IMG/VR virus record: IMGVR_UViG_3300007516_000029
Coordinates: 1 to 49,733 of that record
Origin: a virus
Reading direction: 5' to 3' (one strand)
Length of the DNA stretch: 49,733 nucleotides
Shown in pieces: positions 1 through 15,360 of this stretch. Each line of letters starts with the position of its first letter. Positions within the stretch are counted from its first letter, which is position 1. The notes beneath the pieces are model-generated. The model ran no database searches. It was not told the origin of the DNA and was given only the letters and a program-made list of their open reading frames with translations. A program made the translations under genes and the position numbers.

Positions 1-39
1 AACTTCAAAATTACCATTTTTTTTATATTTAATTTTCAT
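1..39 (-). CDS. 5' end of an unknown gene, cut by the window edge
   Basis: Minus-strand reading from an ATG at 37-39 stays open to the window edge and gives MKIKYKKNGNFEV. It is preceded by a late-type promoter motif (53-62). Another ATG four bases upstream reaches a stop after four codons, so it is not the start. Only 13 residues are visible and no function can be given. It matters because it shows that a new transcription unit begins right after the truncated clp gene. Confidence 0.5.
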   Translation of the reverse strand, partial: MKIKYKKNGNFEV

Positions 40-41
40 AC

Positions 42-85
42 ATTTACTTTTCTTATAAATATATTCAATAGTAAGAAAAGTAAAT
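42..85. repeat. 14-bp perfect inverted repeat flanking a promoter motif
   Basis: The arm at 42-55 (ATTTACTTTTCTTA) is the exact reverse complement of the arm at 72-85, with a 16-base spacer that overlaps the late-type motif TATAAATAT. No T-run follows on either strand, so it does not look like an intrinsic terminator. It could be an operator around the promoter of the gene starting at 39, or an mRNA hairpin. The function is inferred. Confidence 0.6.
53..62 (-). promoter_or_regulatory. late-type promoter motif for the edge gene
   Basis: Minus-strand ATATTTATAA, 14 bases before the ATG at 39. It is one of about 17 orientation-consistent copies in the window and lies between the arms of a 14-bp inverted repeat. 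Confidence 0.5.
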
Positions 86-106: not shown

Positions 107-910
107 TTAGGTGTTGGTAAACGTATTTAATAAATTAGTTATTGTTGTTTTAAACACTTCTCCAGTCAAATCATTTCTCATAACTACTTCAGTATCAGAA
201 CAAATACACTTACCAACACCTGGTTCTCCAATCAATACTGGGTTATTCTTTTTTCTTCTTGATAGAATTTGGGAAAGACGTTTAATTTCTTGTGAACGAC
301 CAATAACTTGGTCAATCTTACCTTCCTCAACCGCTTTGGTGATGTCCCTACAGAAATTATCTAGTACTGGTGTAGCGTTTACCCCTTTCTTAATGGTGAT
401 TTTTTTGTTTGGTTTGTTACTCTCATAATCAAATCCATAATCTTCATCAGAAGAATCTTCATTTTTATTTCTCATCTCTCTTATCATTTCTTTAAAACTT
501 TTATAATTCACACCTAAATCGTATAGGACCTTAGTTGTTAATGTATTGTTAACAATAATTGACAACATTAAATGTCTAGTATCAATCATTGAATCACCTA
601 ACGTATCACACTCACTATCAACCGTGTTAAAAATTAATTTAGTTAAGTTACTAAATGGTCTTCTAATCTTTTTGGTTTGTGTTACTCTTGGTGTCATATC
701 TGACTTGAACGTGATTTCATATACTAAATCATATAATTTATTAACGTCAACACCCATTGCAATTAAAACGTCAACACATTGGTTGTTATTATCCCTTAGT
801 ATTGAAAGTGTTATGTGTTCTGGTGTGACATCAACATGGTCTAACTCTTTAGCTATGATGGCTGCATTACCGATTATTTTTTTGACCTTAGGTATAATTT
901 CTCTATTCAT
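107..910 (-). CDS. ClpC/ClpA-like AAA+ chaperone N-terminal part ending in an N-intein fragment
   Basis: Known family: ClpA/ClpC are hexameric AAA+ unfoldases that feed substrates to ClpP. The 267 residues contain a double Clp-N-like domain (about 1-145), an acidic and basic linker (about 146-180), and the start of the first AAA+ domain with [15 protein letters not shown] (202-216) and the P-loop GEPGVGK (228-234). Directly after the P-loop Lys the protein changes to [12 protein letters not shown], a canonical intein block A, and stops 33 residues later. The remaining AAA+ domain and the rest of the intein are absent from the next 106 bases, which instead hold a new promoter and gene start. 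P-loops are a favourite intein site. The fragment probably trans-splices with a C-terminal half encoded elsewhere. A dead remnant is the alternative. A host-type promoter lies immediately upstream and leaves a very short leader. Confidence 0.85.
110..208 (-). other. N-terminal fragment of a probable atypically split intein
   Basis: Residues 235-267 of the clp product. Cys235 would be the N-terminal splicing nucleophile. The block A pattern CxxxDTxV is followed by a short beta-rich stretch ([12 protein letters not shown]) and then the stop codon. At 33 residues it is far shorter than the N-halves of about 100 residues in DnaE-type split inteins, but it matches the size class of atypically split inteins known from phage metagenomes, such as AceL-TerL. 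No endonuclease or C-terminal block is visible in the window. Confidence 0.75.
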
Positions 911-7542: not shown

Positions 7543-10500
7543 ATGCTAACAACCAGTGAAATATTTAAGGAATATGCCTTATGCATACAAGACCCAATAT
7601 ATGCAATTGAGAACTATATCGAAACATTTGATAAGACTCAAGAGGGTTTTGTTCCGTTTAAGTTGTTCCCAAGACAGAAACAAATTGTTAAGGCTTATGA
7701 GGATAATAGATATAATTTAGTTACCAAGCCAAGGCAAGCTGGTATATCTACCACTACACAGGCTTACATGGCCGTTAAAGCGGGGTTTGCTGACCCAGAC
7801 AACCCAGAGGTTGTTCTTATAATTGCAAATAAGCTTAAATTATCAGTAAAATTCTTAAAAGGTATTAAAGATTATCTAAAACAGTTACCTAGATGGATAT
7901 GGGGTCCAGCGTATTATGGTACTGAAGAAAACGAAAAGAAATCAATTTTCATTACTGATTCTAAAATCGAAATTGAATTACCTAATGGTTCTCAACTTAT
8001 TGCGGTTGCAACATCTGAGGATGCACTTAGGGGGTATACCCCAACATACCTTGTATTTGATGAGGCTGCCTTTATTGATAATGGTGATGCTGTTTATACT
8101 GCGGCCATGTCGTCAATCTCTACTGGGGGAAAGGTAATACTTATTTCCACACCTAATGGTATGGACCCACTATATTATAAAACATACGAACAATCTAAAA
8201 CTGGAAAGAATCAATATCATATTATTGAAATGCGTTGGTATGAAGACCCAAGGTACAATAAAGACCTTAGGTGGACTAAGAAGGTTGAGGATGGTGATGA
8301 TATAGTTGAAGAAGAACTTGAATTTAATTTAGCATCTTATTTAAGAAGGATTGAGGATGGTTGGAAACCAACATCAACATGGTATGAGAATATGTGTATG
8401 GCATTGAATAACAACGCTAGAAAAATAGCACAAGAGTTAGATGTTTCGTTCCTAGGTTCTGGGGGTAATGTTATCGAGGATGAAACTATCGATATGCACG
8501 ATACGAAGAATGTAATGGAGCCTAAGTATGTTTCTGGTGTTGAGGAAGAATTCTGGATATGGGCAGAACCAGTTGAAGGTCATGAGTATATTATGGGTTG
8601 TTTAACTCTAGGTGAACAAGTTTTAACTGACTCTGGACTAATGAACATTGAAGAAGTTACATTAGATGATAAATTAATTAGTGAAGATGGTGGCTATATT
8701 GACATAATTAACAGACAAATATATCCAGTAATTAATGAGGATATATTTGAAGTTAAAATGGATAACACGTTTAGAACAACAACATTTACAAAAGAACACC
8801 CAATACTTATTAGTAAACCAACACTTAAACGTAATTATAATAAAACTCATAAGGTTTATGACTTCAATCAAAGGTATTGGGATTTTGATTTCAACTATAC
8901 CAGAATGGAAGAGGTTGAGATTGGTGATTGGGTAAAAGTACCTAACATTTATAAAAAGAACATTGACGATATTTTAGATAATAAATGGGTAATAGAAGAA
9001 CCAGTTAGAGATGACTTTAATATACATTCACCATTAGACCAAGAAGATTTTTGGTGGTTTATTGGAATGTGGTTAGGTGATGGTTGGTTAGGTCATTATA
9101 ATAAAGACGCTTATTCAATTTCAATATGCTTTGATAAAGCACATATTGGGTATATTGAAAAATGTGAAGATATTATTAAAAGATTGTTTAAACGCTCACC
9201 ATCATTTATAAATAAAGACTCAACATATGAGATTATATTTAATTCTAAATTCTTATATCATTTTATTTTAGAAAATTTTGGACAATATTCCGATGGTAAG
9301 AAAATTTCTGAATGGGTTAAATATATACCAAATAACCTTAAAGAAGTATTAATTAGAGGTTATTTCGATAGTGATGGTTGTTGGGTGGGTTATAATAAGA
9401 ATGGGAAATTAGACTCTAAAGTTAGTTTTGTTAGTGTAAATTTATCGCTATTAGAATCAATACAAGATATTATTTTCTCGTTAGGGGTAATTTCATCATT
9501 AACTAAATTAAGAGATAGTAAAGAAATTGAAATAATGGGTAAATTATGTAATCAAAAAGAAGCATATAATTTAACCCTAGGTAATAGTGATAGTCTAGAT
9601 TTAATAAAATTAATATATACAGAGGATGATATTAAATTAAATAAATTTAAACTTGATGAGTTTAAGGTTATTAATAGACGAACCATTAGTTCTTGTCATT
9701 TTGATGAAGATAAGGATTATATCTACTTTAAAATTAAAGATATATGTAAGAGTAAATACACTGGTAATGTTTATAATTTTGAATGTGATACACACACCTT
9801 TATGTGTCACCATATAACAACACATAATTGTGATGTATCTAGAGGTGATGGTGAGGATAGTTCAACTATAGTTTTAATCGATTTTACGACTATGGAACAA
9901 GTAATGGAATATCAAGGTAAGATACAACCAGATTTACTTGCACAACACGTATATGATTATGGAAATATGTATAAAGCATATACAGTAGTCGATATTACTG
10001 GTGGTATGGGTGTATCAACGGTTCTTAAATTGATTGAAATGAATTACAGTAATAAATTGATGCATTATGATAAGCCAACTGGGAACATACTACCTAACCA
10101 AGCTAGATTGAATACGGTTAAGAGCAAGGACAAGATACCAGGTTTTAATGCCAATGGTGTTCGTCTACCAATGATTGCCAATATGGAAAAATCACTTAGA
10201 GAGAATACGGTTAAGATTAGGTCTAGAAGACTTGTATCTGAAATGAAAACATTTATCTACAAGAATGGTAGACCAGACCACATGGAAGGTTATCACGATG
10301 ATTTACTTATGTCTTTAGGGATGGCACTATGGGTGTTAGAATATTCGTTTAAAAACCTACAAAAAGCAAACGCACAAAACAAAGCAATTTTGAGTAGTTG
10401 GAGTACTGGTGGTTCAACTGTTAAAGAGATTAATAACGAAAGTTACGATGGTGGTTTTGTAGCAAACAATAACAAAGGGAAGAAAACGGCTCCAAGGCCA

Positions 10501-10578
10501 AGGTTTAATCCAAACGTGTCTAGAGGCATGCAAGACCCTAATGGGGATTACATGTGGTTATTTAGCGGAACAAGATAA
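7543..10578 (+). CDS. terL: Terminase large subunit (gp17-like) interrupted by an intein
   Basis: Packaging motor ATPase and headful nuclease. The ATPase has the Walker A-like PRQAGIST (63-70) and Walker B YLVFDEAAF with catalytic Glu174 (169-177). The motif VILISTPNG near residue 200 fits the coupling motif. The RNase H-fold nuclease resumes after the intein with CDVSRGDGEDSSTIVLIDF, whose aspartate is the first metal ligand. A later HDDLLMSLGMALW segment supplies the other acidic residues. An intein occupies residues 353-762. Removing it leaves 601 residues, close to the 610 of T4 gp17. The C-terminal tail (about 940-1011) is rich in Asn, Gly and basic residues. It begins after a terminator and a late-type motif and is followed six bases later by a small gene. 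No small terminase subunit is recognised nearby. Confidence 0.95.
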   Translation: MLTTSEIFKEYALCIQDPIYAIENYIETFDKTQEGFVPFKLFPRQKQIVKAYEDNRYNLVTKPRQAGISTTTQAYMAVKAGFADPDNPEVVLIIANKLKLSVKFLKGIKDYLKQLPRWIWGPAYYGTEENEKKSIFITDSKIEIELPNGSQLIAVATSEDALRGYTPTYLVFDEAAFIDNGDAVYTAAMSSISTGGKVILISTPNGMDPLYYKTYEQSKTGKNQYHIIEMRWYEDPRYNKDLRWTKKVEDGDDIVEEELEFNLASYLRRIEDGWKPTSTWYENMCMALNNNARKIAQELDVSFLGSGGNVIEDETIDMHDTKNVMEPKYVSGVEEEFWIWAEPVEGHEYIMGCLTLGEQVLTDSGLMNIEEVTLDDKLISEDGGYIDIINRQIYPVINEDIFEVKMDNTFRTTTFTKEHPILISKPTLKRNYNKTHKVYDFNQRYWDFDFNYTRMEEVEIGDWVKVPNIYKKNIDDILDNKWVIEEPVRDDFNIHSPLDQEDFWWFIGMWLGDGWLGHYNKDAYSISICFDKAHIGYIEKCEDIIKRLFKRSPSFINKDSTYEIIFNSKFLYHFILENFGQYSDGKKISEWVKYIPNNLKEVLIRGYFDSDGCWVGYNKNGKLDSKVSFVSVNLSLLESIQDIIFSLGVISSLTKLRDSKEIEIMGKLCNQKEAYNLTLGNSDSLDLIKLIYTEDDIKLNKFKLDEFKVINRRTISSCHFDEDKDYIYFKIKDICKSKYTGNVYNFECDTHTFMCHHITTHNCDVSRGDGEDSSTIVLIDFTTMEQVMEYQGKIQPDLLAQHVYDYGNMYKAYTVVDITGGMGVSTVLKLIEMNYSNKLMHYDKPTGNILPNQARLNTVKSKDKIPGFNANGVRLPMIANMEKSLRENTVKIRSRRLVSEMKTFIYKNGRPDHMEGYHDDLLMSLGMALWVLEYSFKNLQKANAQNKAILSSWSTGGSTVKEINNESYDGGFVANNNKGKKTAPRPRFNPNVSRGMQDPNGDYMWLFSGTR
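8599..9828 (+). mobile_element. Intein in terminase with LAGLIDADG endonuclease (410 residues)
   Basis: It starts at Cys353 (CLTLGEQVLTDSGLMNIEEV, block A) and has block B TTTFTKEHPILIS. It ends in HN at 9826-9828 followed by Cys+1 of the extein, so all key splicing residues are present. Two LAGLIDADG motifs are visible: FIGMWLGDGWL (about 506-516) and IRGYFDSDGCW (about 604-614). It is therefore a full-length, potentially mobile intein. It interrupts the host protein one residue before the first catalytic aspartate of the nuclease domain. Confidence 0.93.
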
Positions 10579-10878: not shown

Positions 10879-13800
10879 ATGGCTAATAAGAGAAAACTCA
10901 CAGTCTTTCAAAGAATGAATAACATGTTTGGTCCAGATGGTATAAACGTACCTAGAGACCAAACAAACAGATATTCTATTGGGAGCGGTGAATTACTAAA
11001 AACGGATAATAAGGCTGATTACGAGGCCGCAAAATTACAAGCACAACAATCGAAATATATTAGTGGTCAATGGAAGAAAGTTGATAACGAACTTTTCCAA
11101 CAATCGATTCATTATGAGACAACTCGTGTTGGTTCATATTCTGATTTTGAGAACATGGAATTTTACCCAGAGATTGCAGCTGCTTTAGATATTATGATGG
11201 AAGAAGCGACCACTGTTAACGATAAGGGTGAGGTAATCAACATTTACTCAGATTCAAAAAGAGTTAAAAAGATATTAAAGGATTTATTTCATAACAGATT
11301 AGATATTCATACTTCATTACCAATGTGGACAAGAAACACTTGTAAATATGGTGATAATTTTGTTTTTTTAAATATTGATGATAAAGCTGGTGTTATTGGA
11401 GCTAAACAAATGCATAACTTTGAAATGGAAAGAAGAGAGGGTAGTATTTACGATGCAATTTCTAGACAACATTCAACTGGTGATAATAGAGATGATAGTA
11501 AGGTTAAGTTCTACTGGAAAGGTAGAGATGTTGAGTTTTCATCTTGGCAAATGGCACATTTCCGTTTATTAGGGGATGATAGAAGACTTCCTTATGGAAC
11601 GTGTTTAAAATATAATTCTAGAGTTGAGACAAGTGAGGGGTATAAGGAGATAAAAGATATTGTTATTGGTGATATGGTTTATTCATTTGATGAGATGAAT
11701 CAAGTGAAAGTATTGTCAAAAGTATTGGATACTGTTAATTCTGGTAATAAAAAAACTTATAAACTTAGTACCAAACATAATTTTATAGACGCATCTAAAG
11801 AACATAAGATAATGTATTATAATACTGAATTAAATAAATTCGATTATAAAAATACACTAGATTTTAAACTAGGTGATTTATTGGTTGTTGATAAAATTAA
11901 TCTAAATAATGTTAACGTTCCAATAATTAAAAATAAACCAGAATCAAACAAAAATGGGTTTTGGAATAATGTTGGGTTGATACCTGATTTTGTTGACACT
12001 AAATTTGCAGAATTTTTCGGTTATTTAATAGGTGATGGTTGGATTCACAATGATTCAGTTTTTATAGCTTTATCAGAACATAAATCAATAAATAAAAAAT
12101 ATATTCAATATATGAATCAAATTACTGGTAGAGATATTAAATTTTCTGGTGGTGATAATGGTATGGCGCAAGGTATCTGTAATTCTAAAACTTTGTCGAT
12201 AATTCTTAGAGATATGGGTTTCCTAGGTGATGTTTATAGTAAAAGAATACCTAAATGGGTTTATACTTCTTCTATGGAGGTAAGACAAGCTTTCTTGAAT
12301 GGTATTATTGATGCTGATGGTTCGTTATTTATAGATAAATGGGATTGTCTAAGATATTCTATCGAACTATCAAATGAAGAACTTATTAACGATATCAAAA
12401 TTTTAGTTCAATCTTTGGGTTTGAAATCTGGTAAAATATGTAGTAGACTTCGTAAGGGTTCTGGTATTGGTGATAGGGAATTTAAAACACAACAAGAAAG
12501 TTTTTATTTTTATTTTTATGATAGTAGTGTAAGGCAAAAAAATAAATATGATTTAATTGGTGATAGGTTAACTAACGATTTTATTTTAGAACCGATTAAA
12601 TCAATTGAGGAAAGTGGTGAACACGAAACATACGATATATATGTTGAAAATGATAACCATAATTTCTATGCAAATGGTATCGTTGTCCATAATTCTGTTT
12701 TAGAGAAAGCTAGACGAATATGGAAACAATTGATATTATCGGAAGATTCCATGTTGGTTTATCGTGTTACTCGTGCTCCTGAGAGACGTGTATATAAAAT
12801 TTATGTAGGTAATATTGATGATGGTGATGTTGAGGCGTATGTAAACGCTATTGCGGATAGATTTAAGCGTATGCCTATTATCGACCCACAAACAGGTCAA
12901 ATGGATTTAAGATTTAATCAACTTAGTAATGACCAAGATTATTTTATCCCTGTTCGTACTGAAGATGCACCAAACCCAATTGATACTTTACCTGGGGCTT
13001 GTATCGCATTAGATACCCGAATACCATTATTAGATGGTAGAACGTTAGAATTAAATGAAATAATAAGTGAATGGGATAATGGTAATAGAGACCTTTGGGT
13101 GTATTCTTGTGACCCAAATACTGGTTCTTTAGCCCCAGGATTAATAACGTGGGCTGGTGAAACTCGTAAGAATACTGAAGTTTTAAAAATAACACTTGAT
13201 AATGGTGAAGAGATAATATCAACACCAGACCATAAGTTTGTACATAGAACTAATGGATTTGTTGAAGCTAAAGATTTAGTTATAGGTGATAGTCTAATGC
13301 CATTTTATACAGATACGAAAAAAATAAAAACTAATACTAATGGTGATTACCATAGAGTTTGGGATTCATCAAAAGAAGAGTGGGTATTCACACATAGATT
13401 AGTTGTTGATGGGTTAGATAGTCATGGATTAATTAAAGAGTTTTTATTTGATGAAAAATATCTTAATACTGATAAGAAAATAAGACACCATAAAAACCAT
13501 GATAGGTTTAATAATAACCCAGAAAATTTAGTTTGGATGAATGGTGGTGACCATATGAGATATCACCAATCTGTGATTAAAGAAACTATTTGGGCTAACC
13601 CAGAAGAGAATAAAGCTAAGATTAAAATTGGAATTGATAAATATATCTCAAATTTAACTGTGGTGGAAAAAGAAATTAGAAGTGAAACATCTAAAAATAA
13701 TTCTATTACCACAAGAAAAAAATCAACAGAAACATTTAATAACAACCCAAATAAAGAAAAAATAATTAGAAATAGAGGGATAGCACTTAGTAAAGTAAAA

Positions 13801-15360
13801 TCAACACCAGAATTTAAAGAAAAATTTTCATTGATTGCTAAAGAACAATGGTTAAATGAAGATTATAAAAATAAAGTGTTTAGTAAAAAACAAACAATTA
13901 CATTCACTAATGAACTTTATAATATGTTCTTTGAAATGTTTAAAGTTTATGGTAAAGCTGATTTAACACTTAACGAATTGAATAATTCATCAGAATTTTT
14001 AAATGAGTTTAAAACTTCAAATTATGAAATTAGAAGTTCAATAACCAATCTAAGTGAATTCACAGCAAATCATTTATCTAAGATGCTTAAAATCAATGGT
14101 TTTAAAAATTACAGAGACTGGTGTAAACAAACGGCCAAAGAATTAGGTTATAAAAATGTAAGAGCATGGAGATACTTTATTGAAAAAGAAAACAAAAAAG
14201 AACTTTATAACCACAAAATAGTTAATATTGAATGGTTATCTGAGCGTAAAAATACTGGTACCATTACGGTAGATGGTGATGAGATTTATCACAATTATCA
14301 TACATTTGCTATTGAATCTGGAGTGTTTATTAAAAATTCTAACTTAGACCAAATAGCTGATATTGAATATTTGAGAAGTAATTTATTTACAGCACTTAGG
14401 GTGCCAAAACCATTTTTAGGTTTTGACGATGCGGCTGGTGAGGGTAAAAACCTTGCTTTACAAGATATTCGATTTTCAAGAACGGTAAATAGAATACAAC
14501 AAGCAATGTTACAGGAGCTTAATAAAATAGCTATAATCCATTTATACTTATTAGGTTTTGAAGAAGATTTTGATAATTTTACACTAACATTAAATAACCC
14601 ATCAACCCAAGCTGAAATGCTTAAAATTGAACATTTACAAGCCAAAGTCACTTTGTATAAGGATGCGGTTTCGGATGCTGGAAATGGTTTTGGTGCGTAT
14701 TCAATGACACGTGGTAAAAGAGATATATTAGGTATGTCTGATGATGATATAAAATCAGACTTACTTGAACAAAGAATGGAGAAAGCTGCTGCCGCTGAAT
14801 TAGCTAACTCAGCAAACGTTATTAAACATACAGGTATGTTTGATATTGTTGACCGAGTTTATGGTGATTTCAAAGTCGCCCTTGAAGGTGGAGCTATTGC
14901 TGGTGGTGAAGGTGGAGAAGAAGGTGCTGATGGTGGTGGAGGCGGTGGAGGCGGTGGAGGTGGTCTCGGAGGCTCATTCGGTGGAGGTGGTGTAGGTGGT
15001 GAAGATTTAGATTTCGGTGATGAAGGTGATGAAGAAGGTGAAGAAGGTGGTGAACTTGGTGGTGAAGTTGGTGGTGAAGTTGGGGCTGAAGATGAGCTTG
15101 CTGATGCTGAACCAGAAGAGGTTTCTGAAAGAATCAAAAAAGTTAATAAAATTTTAACGGAACGTAAAGAATTATTAACTAAAAAACTAAACACTAGAAC
15201 CAAAAAATATAAAGATAGATTTGTTGAAGCACTGATTGAATCTATAAAACCAGAACCAAGTAAAATGGTTGATAAGGTTAAAATTTATGATAAAAACATC
15301 AAAGTAAATAAAGAAATTGACGATATGATAAATAACATTGATAAAATGTTAGATGAATAA
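10879..15360 (+). CDS. Portal protein (gp20-like) carrying two inteins
   Basis: Twelve-fold portal at the capsid vertex, docking site of terminase and tail. The extein has typical myovirus portal features: FYPEIAAALDIMMEEATT (about 95), TRNTCKYGDNFVFLNI (about 153), and RLPYGT joined after intein removal to SVLEKARRIWKQL. Next are LPGA joined to SNLDQIADIEYLRSNLFTALRVP, then NLALQDIRFSRTVNRIQQAM. Intein 1 covers residues 242-605 and intein 2 residues 708-1153. The spliced protein would be 683 residues, longer than the 524 of T4 gp20. The excess is a Gly/Glu-rich low-complexity stretch (bases 14887-15120, including a run of 11 glycines) followed by a basic coiled-coil-like tail (about 1415-1493). 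It lies between the terminase unit and the protease unit. Confidence 0.93.
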   Translation: MANKRKLTVFQRMNNMFGPDGINVPRDQTNRYSIGSGELLKTDNKADYEAAKLQAQQSKYISGQWKKVDNELFQQSIHYETTRVGSYSDFENMEFYPEIAAALDIMMEEATTVNDKGEVINIYSDSKRVKKILKDLFHNRLDIHTSLPMWTRNTCKYGDNFVFLNIDDKAGVIGAKQMHNFEMERREGSIYDAISRQHSTGDNRDDSKVKFYWKGRDVEFSSWQMAHFRLLGDDRRLPYGTCLKYNSRVETSEGYKEIKDIVIGDMVYSFDEMNQVKVLSKVLDTVNSGNKKTYKLSTKHNFIDASKEHKIMYYNTELNKFDYKNTLDFKLGDLLVVDKINLNNVNVPIIKNKPESNKNGFWNNVGLIPDFVDTKFAEFFGYLIGDGWIHNDSVFIALSEHKSINKKYIQYMNQITGRDIKFSGGDNGMAQGICNSKTLSIILRDMGFLGDVYSKRIPKWVYTSSMEVRQAFLNGIIDADGSLFIDKWDCLRYSIELSNEELINDIKILVQSLGLKSGKICSRLRKGSGIGDREFKTQQESFYFYFYDSSVRQKNKYDLIGDRLTNDFILEPIKSIEESGEHETYDIYVENDNHNFYANGIVVHNSVLEKARRIWKQLILSEDSMLVYRVTRAPERRVYKIYVGNIDDGDVEAYVNAIADRFKRMPIIDPQTGQMDLRFNQLSNDQDYFIPVRTEDAPNPIDTLPGACIALDTRIPLLDGRTLELNEIISEWDNGNRDLWVYSCDPNTGSLAPGLITWAGETRKNTEVLKITLDNGEEIISTPDHKFVHRTNGFVEAKDLVIGDSLMPFYTDTKKIKTNTNGDYHRVWDSSKEEWVFTHRLVVDGLDSHGLIKEFLFDEKYLNTDKKIRHHKNHDRFNNNPENLVWMNGGDHMRYHQSVIKETIWANPEENKAKIKIGIDKYISNLTVVEKEIRSETSKNNSITTRKKSTETFNNNPNKEKIIRNRGIALSKVKSTPEFKEKFSLIAKEQWLNEDYKNKVFSKKQTITFTNELYNMFFEMFKVYGKADLTLNELNNSSEFLNEFKTSNYEIRSSITNLSEFTANHLSKMLKINGFKNYRDWCKQTAKELGYKNVRAWRYFIEKENKKELYNHKIVNIEWLSERKNTGTITVDGDEIYHNYHTFAIESGVFIKNSNLDQIADIEYLRSNLFTALRVPKPFLGFDDAAGEGKNLALQDIRFSRTVNRIQQAMLQELNKIAIIHLYLLGFEEDFDNFTLTLNNPSTQAEMLKIEHLQAKVTLYKDAVSDAGNGFGAYSMTRGKRDILGMSDDDIKSDLLEQRMEKAAAAELANSANVIKHTGMFDIVDRVYGDFKVALEGGAIAGGEGGEEGADGGGGGGGGGGGLGGSFGGGGVGGEDLDFGDEGDEEGEEGGELGGEVGGEVGAEDELADAEPEEVSERIKKVNKILTERKELLTKKLNTRTKKYKDRFVEALIESIKPEPSKMVDKVKIYDKNIKVNKEIDDMINNIDKMLDE
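11602..12693 (+). mobile_element. Portal intein 1 with LAGLIDADG endonuclease (364 residues)
   Basis: It begins at Cys242 (CLKYNSRVETSEGYKEIKDI) and ends ANGIVVHN before Ser606, so the nucleophile, penultimate His, terminal Asn and +1 Ser are all present. LAGLIDADG motifs are FFGYLIGDGWI (about 379-389) and LNGIIDADGSL (about 473-483). It sits in the RLPYGT/SVLEKAR motif, one of the best conserved segments of the portal. Confidence 0.93.
13000..14337 (+). mobile_element. Portal intein 2 with HNH endonuclease (446 residues)
   Basis: It starts at Cys708 (CIALDTRIPLLDGRTLELNE), with block B EEIISTPDHKF, and ends SGVFIKN before Ser1154. The penultimate residue is Lys rather than the usual His. 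The insert is not LAGLIDADG. It holds an HNH-type core with HH at 870-871 (RHHKNHDRFNNNPENLVWM) followed by HMRYH, and then Lys-rich helical segments likely to bind DNA (about 900-1090). Endonuclease class and splice-site chemistry therefore differ from intein 1 in the same gene. Confidence 0.9.

Follow-up and report, generated by a model that had tools for sequence, protein, structure and literature searches.

One end of a viral genome fragment carries a clpC gene that is broken, inside an ATP-binding motif, by the N-terminal part of an intein. The stretch is IMG/VR record IMGVR_UViG_3300007516_000029, and by the window we mean all of it: the complete virus record, which is 49,733 bases long and is probably a fragment. 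The window encodes T4-like portal and terminase proteins and a gp23 capsid protein, so it is from a phage. Its minus-strand open reading frame (ORF) at 107-910 is very probably the first of two, and possibly three, genes for a single phage ClpC, whose halves would be joined by protein trans-splicing and whose intein, together with an endonuclease, would be mobile.

The break in clpC

The ORF encodes 267 amino acids. It begins with a Clp_N domain (Pfam, 2.2e-13), matches PHROG 4871, "ATP-dependent protease" (7e-30; positions 5-235 of the 764 in the profile), and continues into the first AAA+ domain (D1) as far as the P-loop, GEPGVGK. A 33-residue N-intein and a stop codon follow, so that the window alone holds just Clp_N and the beginning of D1 out of the ClpC domain set. 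The initial annotation, which was made from the sequence alone, had a ClpC-like protein ending at the P-loop Lys234 and an intein that starts at Cys235 and stops after 33 residues. These details are correct, and the start of the intein, C235 ICSDTEV, has the block A pattern CxxxDTxV. The features of this end of the window are as follows.

209..910, minus strand: N-extein of ClpC, with the start codon, Clp_N, and AAA+ D1 from its N-terminal end to the P-loop Lys234 (from Pfam, PHROG, and alignment with relatives)
209..229, minus strand: P-loop GEPGVGK, residues 228-234, at the splice junction (GxPGVGK is conserved in the alignment of relatives)
110..208, minus strand: atypical N-intein of 33 residues, C235 to T267 (from alignment; 96% DNA identity to contig L012, as against 77% in the adjoining extein)
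107..109, minus strand: stop codon of the N-half gene (equivalent stop position in 11 relatives)
42..85, minus strand: perfect 14-bp inverted repeat with a 16-nucleotide loop, located between the N-half gene and the one that follows (neither a terminator nor a promoter consensus scores at this place)
1..39 (window 39-1), minus strand: first 13 codons, MKIKYKKNGNFEV, of a putative EDxHD/Vsr-like homing-endonuclease gene that is truncated at the contig edge (97% identical to L012 DNA; intact homologue at L007:10892-12322, decayed homologue at L012:10278-10634)

Our first scan of viral contigs with this ORF gave six relatives, and further scans and an ORF survey extended the set. In all, 424 viral stretches have relatives of the N-half; Clp ATPases are not very rare in phages, and we do not agree that a phage-encoded ClpC is unusual in itself, as was initially suggested. 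Eleven contigs (L005, L006, L007, L008, L012, L013, L023, L048, L055, L059, and L060) have the same break in D1, at GK/C (the slash marks the junction), with 29-42 residues of N-intein before the stop. The first four of these came from the first scan, in which L009 was broken only at the P-loop of the second AAA+ domain (D2) and L010 was intact.

The rest of the gene is next door. Ten of the D1-split contigs can be read across the gap, and in all ten the C-half lies immediately downstream on the same strand, after 5-1530 nucleotides; there are no contigs that have the N-half and extend far enough but lack the C-half. The partner is the one that had been predicted: a C-intein (about 124 amino acids) that ends in HN, then Thr and D1. 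For example, the N-half of L006 has 272 amino acids, and the next gene (492 amino acids) encodes a 124-residue C-intein ending in ILSHN and then TSIVEGLA... through D1 to GPTGVGK. In L012, the nearest relative, the C-intein also has 124 amino acids, and its end at the D1 junction reads SHN/T. The two halves in L023 are 5 nucleotides apart and in different frames, and those in L008 are separated by two in-frame stops, so no single point mutation or sequencing error can explain the break. We drew 79 loci on the N-half; in 56 of them neither P-loop is interrupted, and this patchy distribution is as expected for homing elements.

Some relatives have other inteins near this site. L037 (5719-6012 and 7221-8732) and L043 (6849-7127 and 7249-8763) have a second, different split intein in D1, located three residues earlier (GEPG/C...HN/CGKTAIVEG); the short N-intein in L037 is CVLGDTIIEVEKISVVNTHNIETI, and the gap in L037 contains a further gene. 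At the same position of the D1 P-loop as in the window, L031 (5387-8287), L197, L198, L220, and L231 have contiguous inteins that start with Ala (GKA...HN/T), with a LAGLIDADG domain in that of L031.

In the window, the ORF points off the left edge, so merely 106 bases follow it. The initial annotation described these as containing no intein sequence but a new promoter and gene. They do lack a C-intein and a new ORF does start there. The promoter did not hold up, as a sigma-70 scan of the spacer gave 1 site against 1.9 expected by chance; an intrinsic terminator in the spacer was also no more than chance, and the tail contains a 14-bp inverted repeat (42-55/72-85). When we searched viral contigs for the DNA pattern at the left edge, L012 was the sole match. 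L012 and the window are 59% identical across the whole N-extein, 77% in the extein beside the junction, 96% in the N-intein, and 97% in the 106 nucleotides after the stop. From there L012 runs into an endonuclease gene that is disrupted by in-frame stops and a deletion; its C-intein and D1, both intact, follow 424 nucleotides after the stop of the N-half. Judging from L012, the left edge of the window cuts 13 codons into a homing-endonuclease gene. The C-half of the window phage, whose position we take from its neighbors, probably lies off the contig. A motif scan of the window's ORFs found no other intein half, so the search for a C-intein elsewhere in the genome, which had been proposed as a check, came up empty in the record itself; it is the ten relatives that can be read past the break that supply the partner. 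Since the record ends at the window edge, the lack of a C-half within 106 bases says nothing about the phage.

Inteins and endonucleases as probable mobile units

As far as can be told from their sequences, these are atypically split inteins, encoded by two genes, with an N-intein (IntN) of a few tens of residues and a C-intein (IntC) of over 100. This is the size class to which the 33 residues in the window had been assigned. The N-inteins have 29-42 amino acids at D1 and 28-36 at D2, and the C-inteins of the relatives have about 121-160. Cys1 is present in 12/12 N-inteins from D1 and 23/23 from D2. All 36 C-inteins (10 from D1 and 26 from D2) retain the block-B His and have the motif (Y/F)(Y/F)T(N/D)xILSHN at their end, followed by Thr. 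The best sequence match among solved structures is CatC, the consensus atypically split intein (phmmer, 2.4e-5). One relative, L061, has an unbroken intein of 173 amino acids at the D2 site, and its linker can be aligned with the extra N-terminal segment of the split C-inteins, which implies that the split halves are two parts of one intein. An AlphaFold2 model of the L061 intein (predicted local distance difference test [pLDDT] 70.6, predicted template modeling score [pTM] 0.57) is a HINT domain: its top 50 matches in the PDB are all inteins, including VidaL, Cat, PolB16 OarG, and gp41-1.

The inteins have moved recently. Across the window, L012, and L006, synonymous divergence (dS) is about 1.3-1.5 in the exteins and 0.07-0.10 in IntN. 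For the window and L012, dS is 1.38 in the N-extein versus 0.10 in IntN, and for L006 and L012 it is 1.52 in the D1 extein versus 0.14 in IntC. The low values for the inteins relative to the exteins imply that both halves moved between diverged phages, as a unit. Nonsynonymous divergence (dN) in IntC is just 0.013, against the dS of 0.14, so IntC is under purifying selection.

The gaps often contain endonuclease genes: there is one in most of the gaps at D2 and in some at D1 (L007 and L059), and the window shows the first 13 codons of one. These genes form one family with repeated segments of the WxxKGxSxxEA type and a C-terminal nuclease. Pfam gave weak hits to DUF559/MTES_1575, and searching the PDB by sequence gave nothing useful. 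In an AlphaFold2 model (pLDDT 78, pTM 0.36), the C-terminal domain has as its best fold match the catalytic domain of I-Bth0305I (3r3p; Foldseek probability 0.99, template modeling score by target 0.67, E 0.15), a homing endonuclease of the EDxHD/Vsr-like type with a solved structure. As modeled, the gap genes belong to the EDxHD/Vsr-like family. EDxHD/Vsr endonucleases are described in PMC12350094, which credits the family to Dassa 2009.

The loci form a near-complete evolutionary series, from the empty site through a contiguous mini-intein (L061) and a contiguous LAGLIDADG intein (L031) to split forms in which the endonuclease is intact (L007), decayed (L012), or gone (L023). The origin and the persistence of split inteins should therefore be directly testable.

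A second break and the proposed pairing of the inteins

In several contigs (L006, L007, L008, and L013), both the D1 and the D2 P-loops are split, the latter by a second, paralogous intein, so ClpC is encoded by three genes. More than twenty contigs are split at D2, and several are split at both sites. The 492-residue gene of L006, for instance, is broken again at GPTGVGK by a second N-intein, CICGDTQIVIRNKTTGLVEEIDINELKNRIKH*, and a third gene encodes the second C-intein and D2. Together, these pieces tile PHROG 4871 (764 positions), with the window's piece at 5-235 and the pieces from L006 at 227-510 and 510-762. Once joined, the pieces in the relatives have the domain order of ClpC: Clp_N, AAA, AAA_lid_9, UVR, AAA_2, and ClpB_D2-small (Pfam).

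Two of the D2 breaks have unusual contents. The gap in L006 has a gene for a C5-cytosine DNA methyltransferase (13157-14098) beside a truncated endonuclease gene (14091-14432) that encodes 113 amino acids, the C-terminal part only. In L012 (10635-12528), the D2 N-intein continues in frame into unrelated sequence, KMNKRIKELLEK..., and the contig ends before the C-half; relatives of KMNKRIKELLEK... occur in L013 as a gene of their own and in L036 as an N-terminal extension, which suggests a gene fusion at the split point.

If a phage has two split inteins, then they should not be allowed to cross, as cross-splicing would join ClpN straight to D2. In a tree of the C-inteins, the sequences group by site, with one exception: L048, at D1, clusters with a D2 intein. 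Of the 11 columns that separate the D1 and D2 classes, 9 are within residues 10-29 of the C-intein. Residue 13 of IntN is Asp in 12/12 sequences from D1 and Lys in 23/23 from D2, and residue 26 of IntC is Lys in 10/10 from D1 and Asp in 24/26 from D2, where each class represents few independent events. This charge swap suggests a specificity pair that would prevent cross-splicing. The split intein in the terminase large subunit (TerL) of a Salicola phage has K13 with D26, like the D2 class (read by eye).

The C-intein of L048 (8591-10795) has D1-type residues near its N terminus, at 16, 17, 26, and 29, and D2-type sequence (like L040) elsewhere; it is an apparent recombinant.

At both D1 and D2, the intein separates the Lys of a Walker A motif from its Thr, so both ATPase rings should be inactive before splicing. 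We see an even chance that two paralogous atypically split inteins, one per Walker A motif, build the enzyme from the products of three genes, that they are mutually orthogonal due to the charge swap, and that both ATPase sites are dead until splicing, which could time the activity of ClpC during infection. That the phage uses this inactivity as a timer is speculation on our part.

Proposed mechanism, alternatives, and related systems

We propose that the first gene yields ClpN-IntN1 and that a separate gene just past the contig edge, after the homing-endonuclease gene or its remains, yields IntC1-D1... If D2 is split as well, then a third gene would make IntC2-D2. IntN1 (33 amino acids) and IntC1 (about 124) would associate, fold as a HINT domain, and splice by the class 1 route, using Cys1, the block-B His, the terminal Asn, and Thr+1. 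Splicing would join GEPGVGK to T(S/A)IVEGLA and restore the Walker A motif; until then, neither piece should be able to bind ATP properly at the D1 site. If the halves of L023 were joined, then the junction peptide would span GEPGVGKTSIIEGLA. As DNA, the intein and the endonuclease within the break would move as one unit, homing into the uninterrupted clpC genes of related phages, presumably after the endonuclease cleaves the empty site.

Splicing in vivo seems probable to us from comparing sequences. Several points weigh against the proposal. The model of the L061 intein is of moderate confidence only, the fold match of the endonuclease has a weak Foldseek E-value (0.15), the endonuclease in L012 has decayed, and the promoter described initially lacks statistical support. 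Also, the window phage's own C-half is outside the contig, and a decayed partner is possible there. If the C-half had been lost or broken after an earlier split or contiguous intein, then the N-half would be a pseudogene or would encode a truncated Clp_N protein, and the stops and the deletion in the L012 endonuclease would fit with such decay. But the window's IntN hardly differs from the IntN of L006 and that of L012, and both of these contigs have intact C-halves; the N-extein has a dN of 0.43 versus a dS of 1.4; and every sufficiently long contig with the N-half has a C-half. We consider decay to be improbable.

The feature is at a contig edge, so one might also suspect that sequencing or assembly has introduced a false stop, or a chimeric end, into a clpC whose intein is in fact contiguous. 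Yet the same break is found in contigs from many samples, and the gap holds an independent gene, a decayed endonuclease, or a frame-shifted spacer. This refutes error as the cause of the arrangement in the relatives, and for the window we give error next to no credence. A somewhat less remote idea, though still very improbable, is that the pieces act as noncovalent subunits, or that the intein only cleaves and frees the halves. Split AAA+ proteins do sometimes complement each other noncovalently, and the argument for splicing is from sequence. However, the breaks are inside the Walker A motifs of both D1 and D2, and Cys1, SHN, and Thr+1 are kept throughout, which selection would not maintain for simple subunits. 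We continue to favor trans-splicing.

We do not think that bacteria are the source of the split gene. The best matches in bacterial genomes were to D2 only, from ordinary ClpC proteins, mostly of Bacteroidota, that lack the intein, and L174, whose match extends further, proved to be an unbroken ClpC from a bacterium. That Bacteroidota have the closest cellular ClpC sequences is a hint at the host range of these phages. We also rejected ClpP as a required neighbor, as a gene for it is present in just 4 of 31 contigs with ClpC, mostly the largest (including one that is split at D1 and one that is split at D2), so many of these phages may use the host's ClpP or none. Genes for ClpA, ClpX, and ClpP have already been described in jumbo phages (PMC7824862).

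The window has other features. A KTSC-domain gene (952-1476) lies just upstream of the clpC N-half and is divergent to it, and a similar-looking gene at the equivalent place in L006 (9167-9679) suggests conserved synteny. A contiguous LAGLIDADG intein interrupts TerL (1011 amino acids; 7543-10578), and at least one intein, probably two, interrupts the portal protein (1493 amino acids; 10879-15360), so this phage has several inteins beyond the split one. At the right end, an ORF that is cut by the contig edge (49060-49731) has YadA-head-like repeats with a 21-nucleotide period and probably encodes a tail fiber or adhesin.

Dassa et al. (2009, NAR 37:2560) reportedly described genes that are fractured by split inteins and accompanied by homing endonucleases of the EDxHD/Vsr-like family, and the genes involved are said to encode enzymes of DNA synthesis and repair. 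Our loci are similar in that a phage enzyme gene is broken by a split intein, a free-standing gene for a Vsr-like endonuclease sits in the gap, and the arrangement is patchy and mobile. They differ in that the host protein is the unfoldase ClpC, the split is atypically early, and there are up to two breaks and three pieces. That study is cited in PMC10448857 and PMC12350094. In a literature search that did not extend to Dassa 2009, we found no paper that links split inteins to phage ClpC or that describes the three-piece form, the novelty of which is unproven.

Among atypically split inteins, AceL-TerL, VidaL, the Cat consensus, and PolB16 OarG share a very short N-intein, a long C-intein, and a split in an early loop, and CatC and VidaL are among our best sequence or fold matches. 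Natural atypical N-inteins have 15-25 amino acids (PMC11923092; PMC10189870). In contrast, ours have 28-42, with C-inteins of about 121-160 that at D2 have an N-terminal linker extension, in a ClpC host and with Cys1 and Thr+1. Contiguous mini-inteins at the TerL Walker A motif of Ackermannviridae (Vibrio phage SD25 and Serratia phage 3M) belong to the same family by sequence (37-42% to IntC1) and are inserted at the P-loop GK/T, but they are unsplit and are in the terminase large subunit. The phage-derived natural split inteins gp41-1, NrdJ-1, and IMPDH-1 have the same HINT fold but are split at the canonical endonuclease site, with N-inteins of about 90-100 amino acids, rather than near the N terminus.

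A related atypical intein splits TerL in the cultured jumbo phage Salicola phage SCTP-2 (MF360958.1; L098:3992-4885 and L180:1450-1842). The halves are about 172 kilobases (kb) apart, with the N-half ORF near 429.5 kb on the minus strand and the C-half, gp267, at 256.4 kb; gp267 is annotated simply as terminase large subunit.

Over 30 new natural split inteins with short N-inteins come out of this analysis, and some of them form natural pairs that have to share a cell without crossing, a property that toolkits for protein engineering seek. In kind, the locus is a fractured gene whose intein is atypically split, and what appears to be new is the ClpC host, the apparent orthogonality, and the double fracture. 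With it, an arrangement described for enzymes of DNA metabolism reaches an AAA+ unfoldase of proteins, and the relatives show that one gene can be broken twice.
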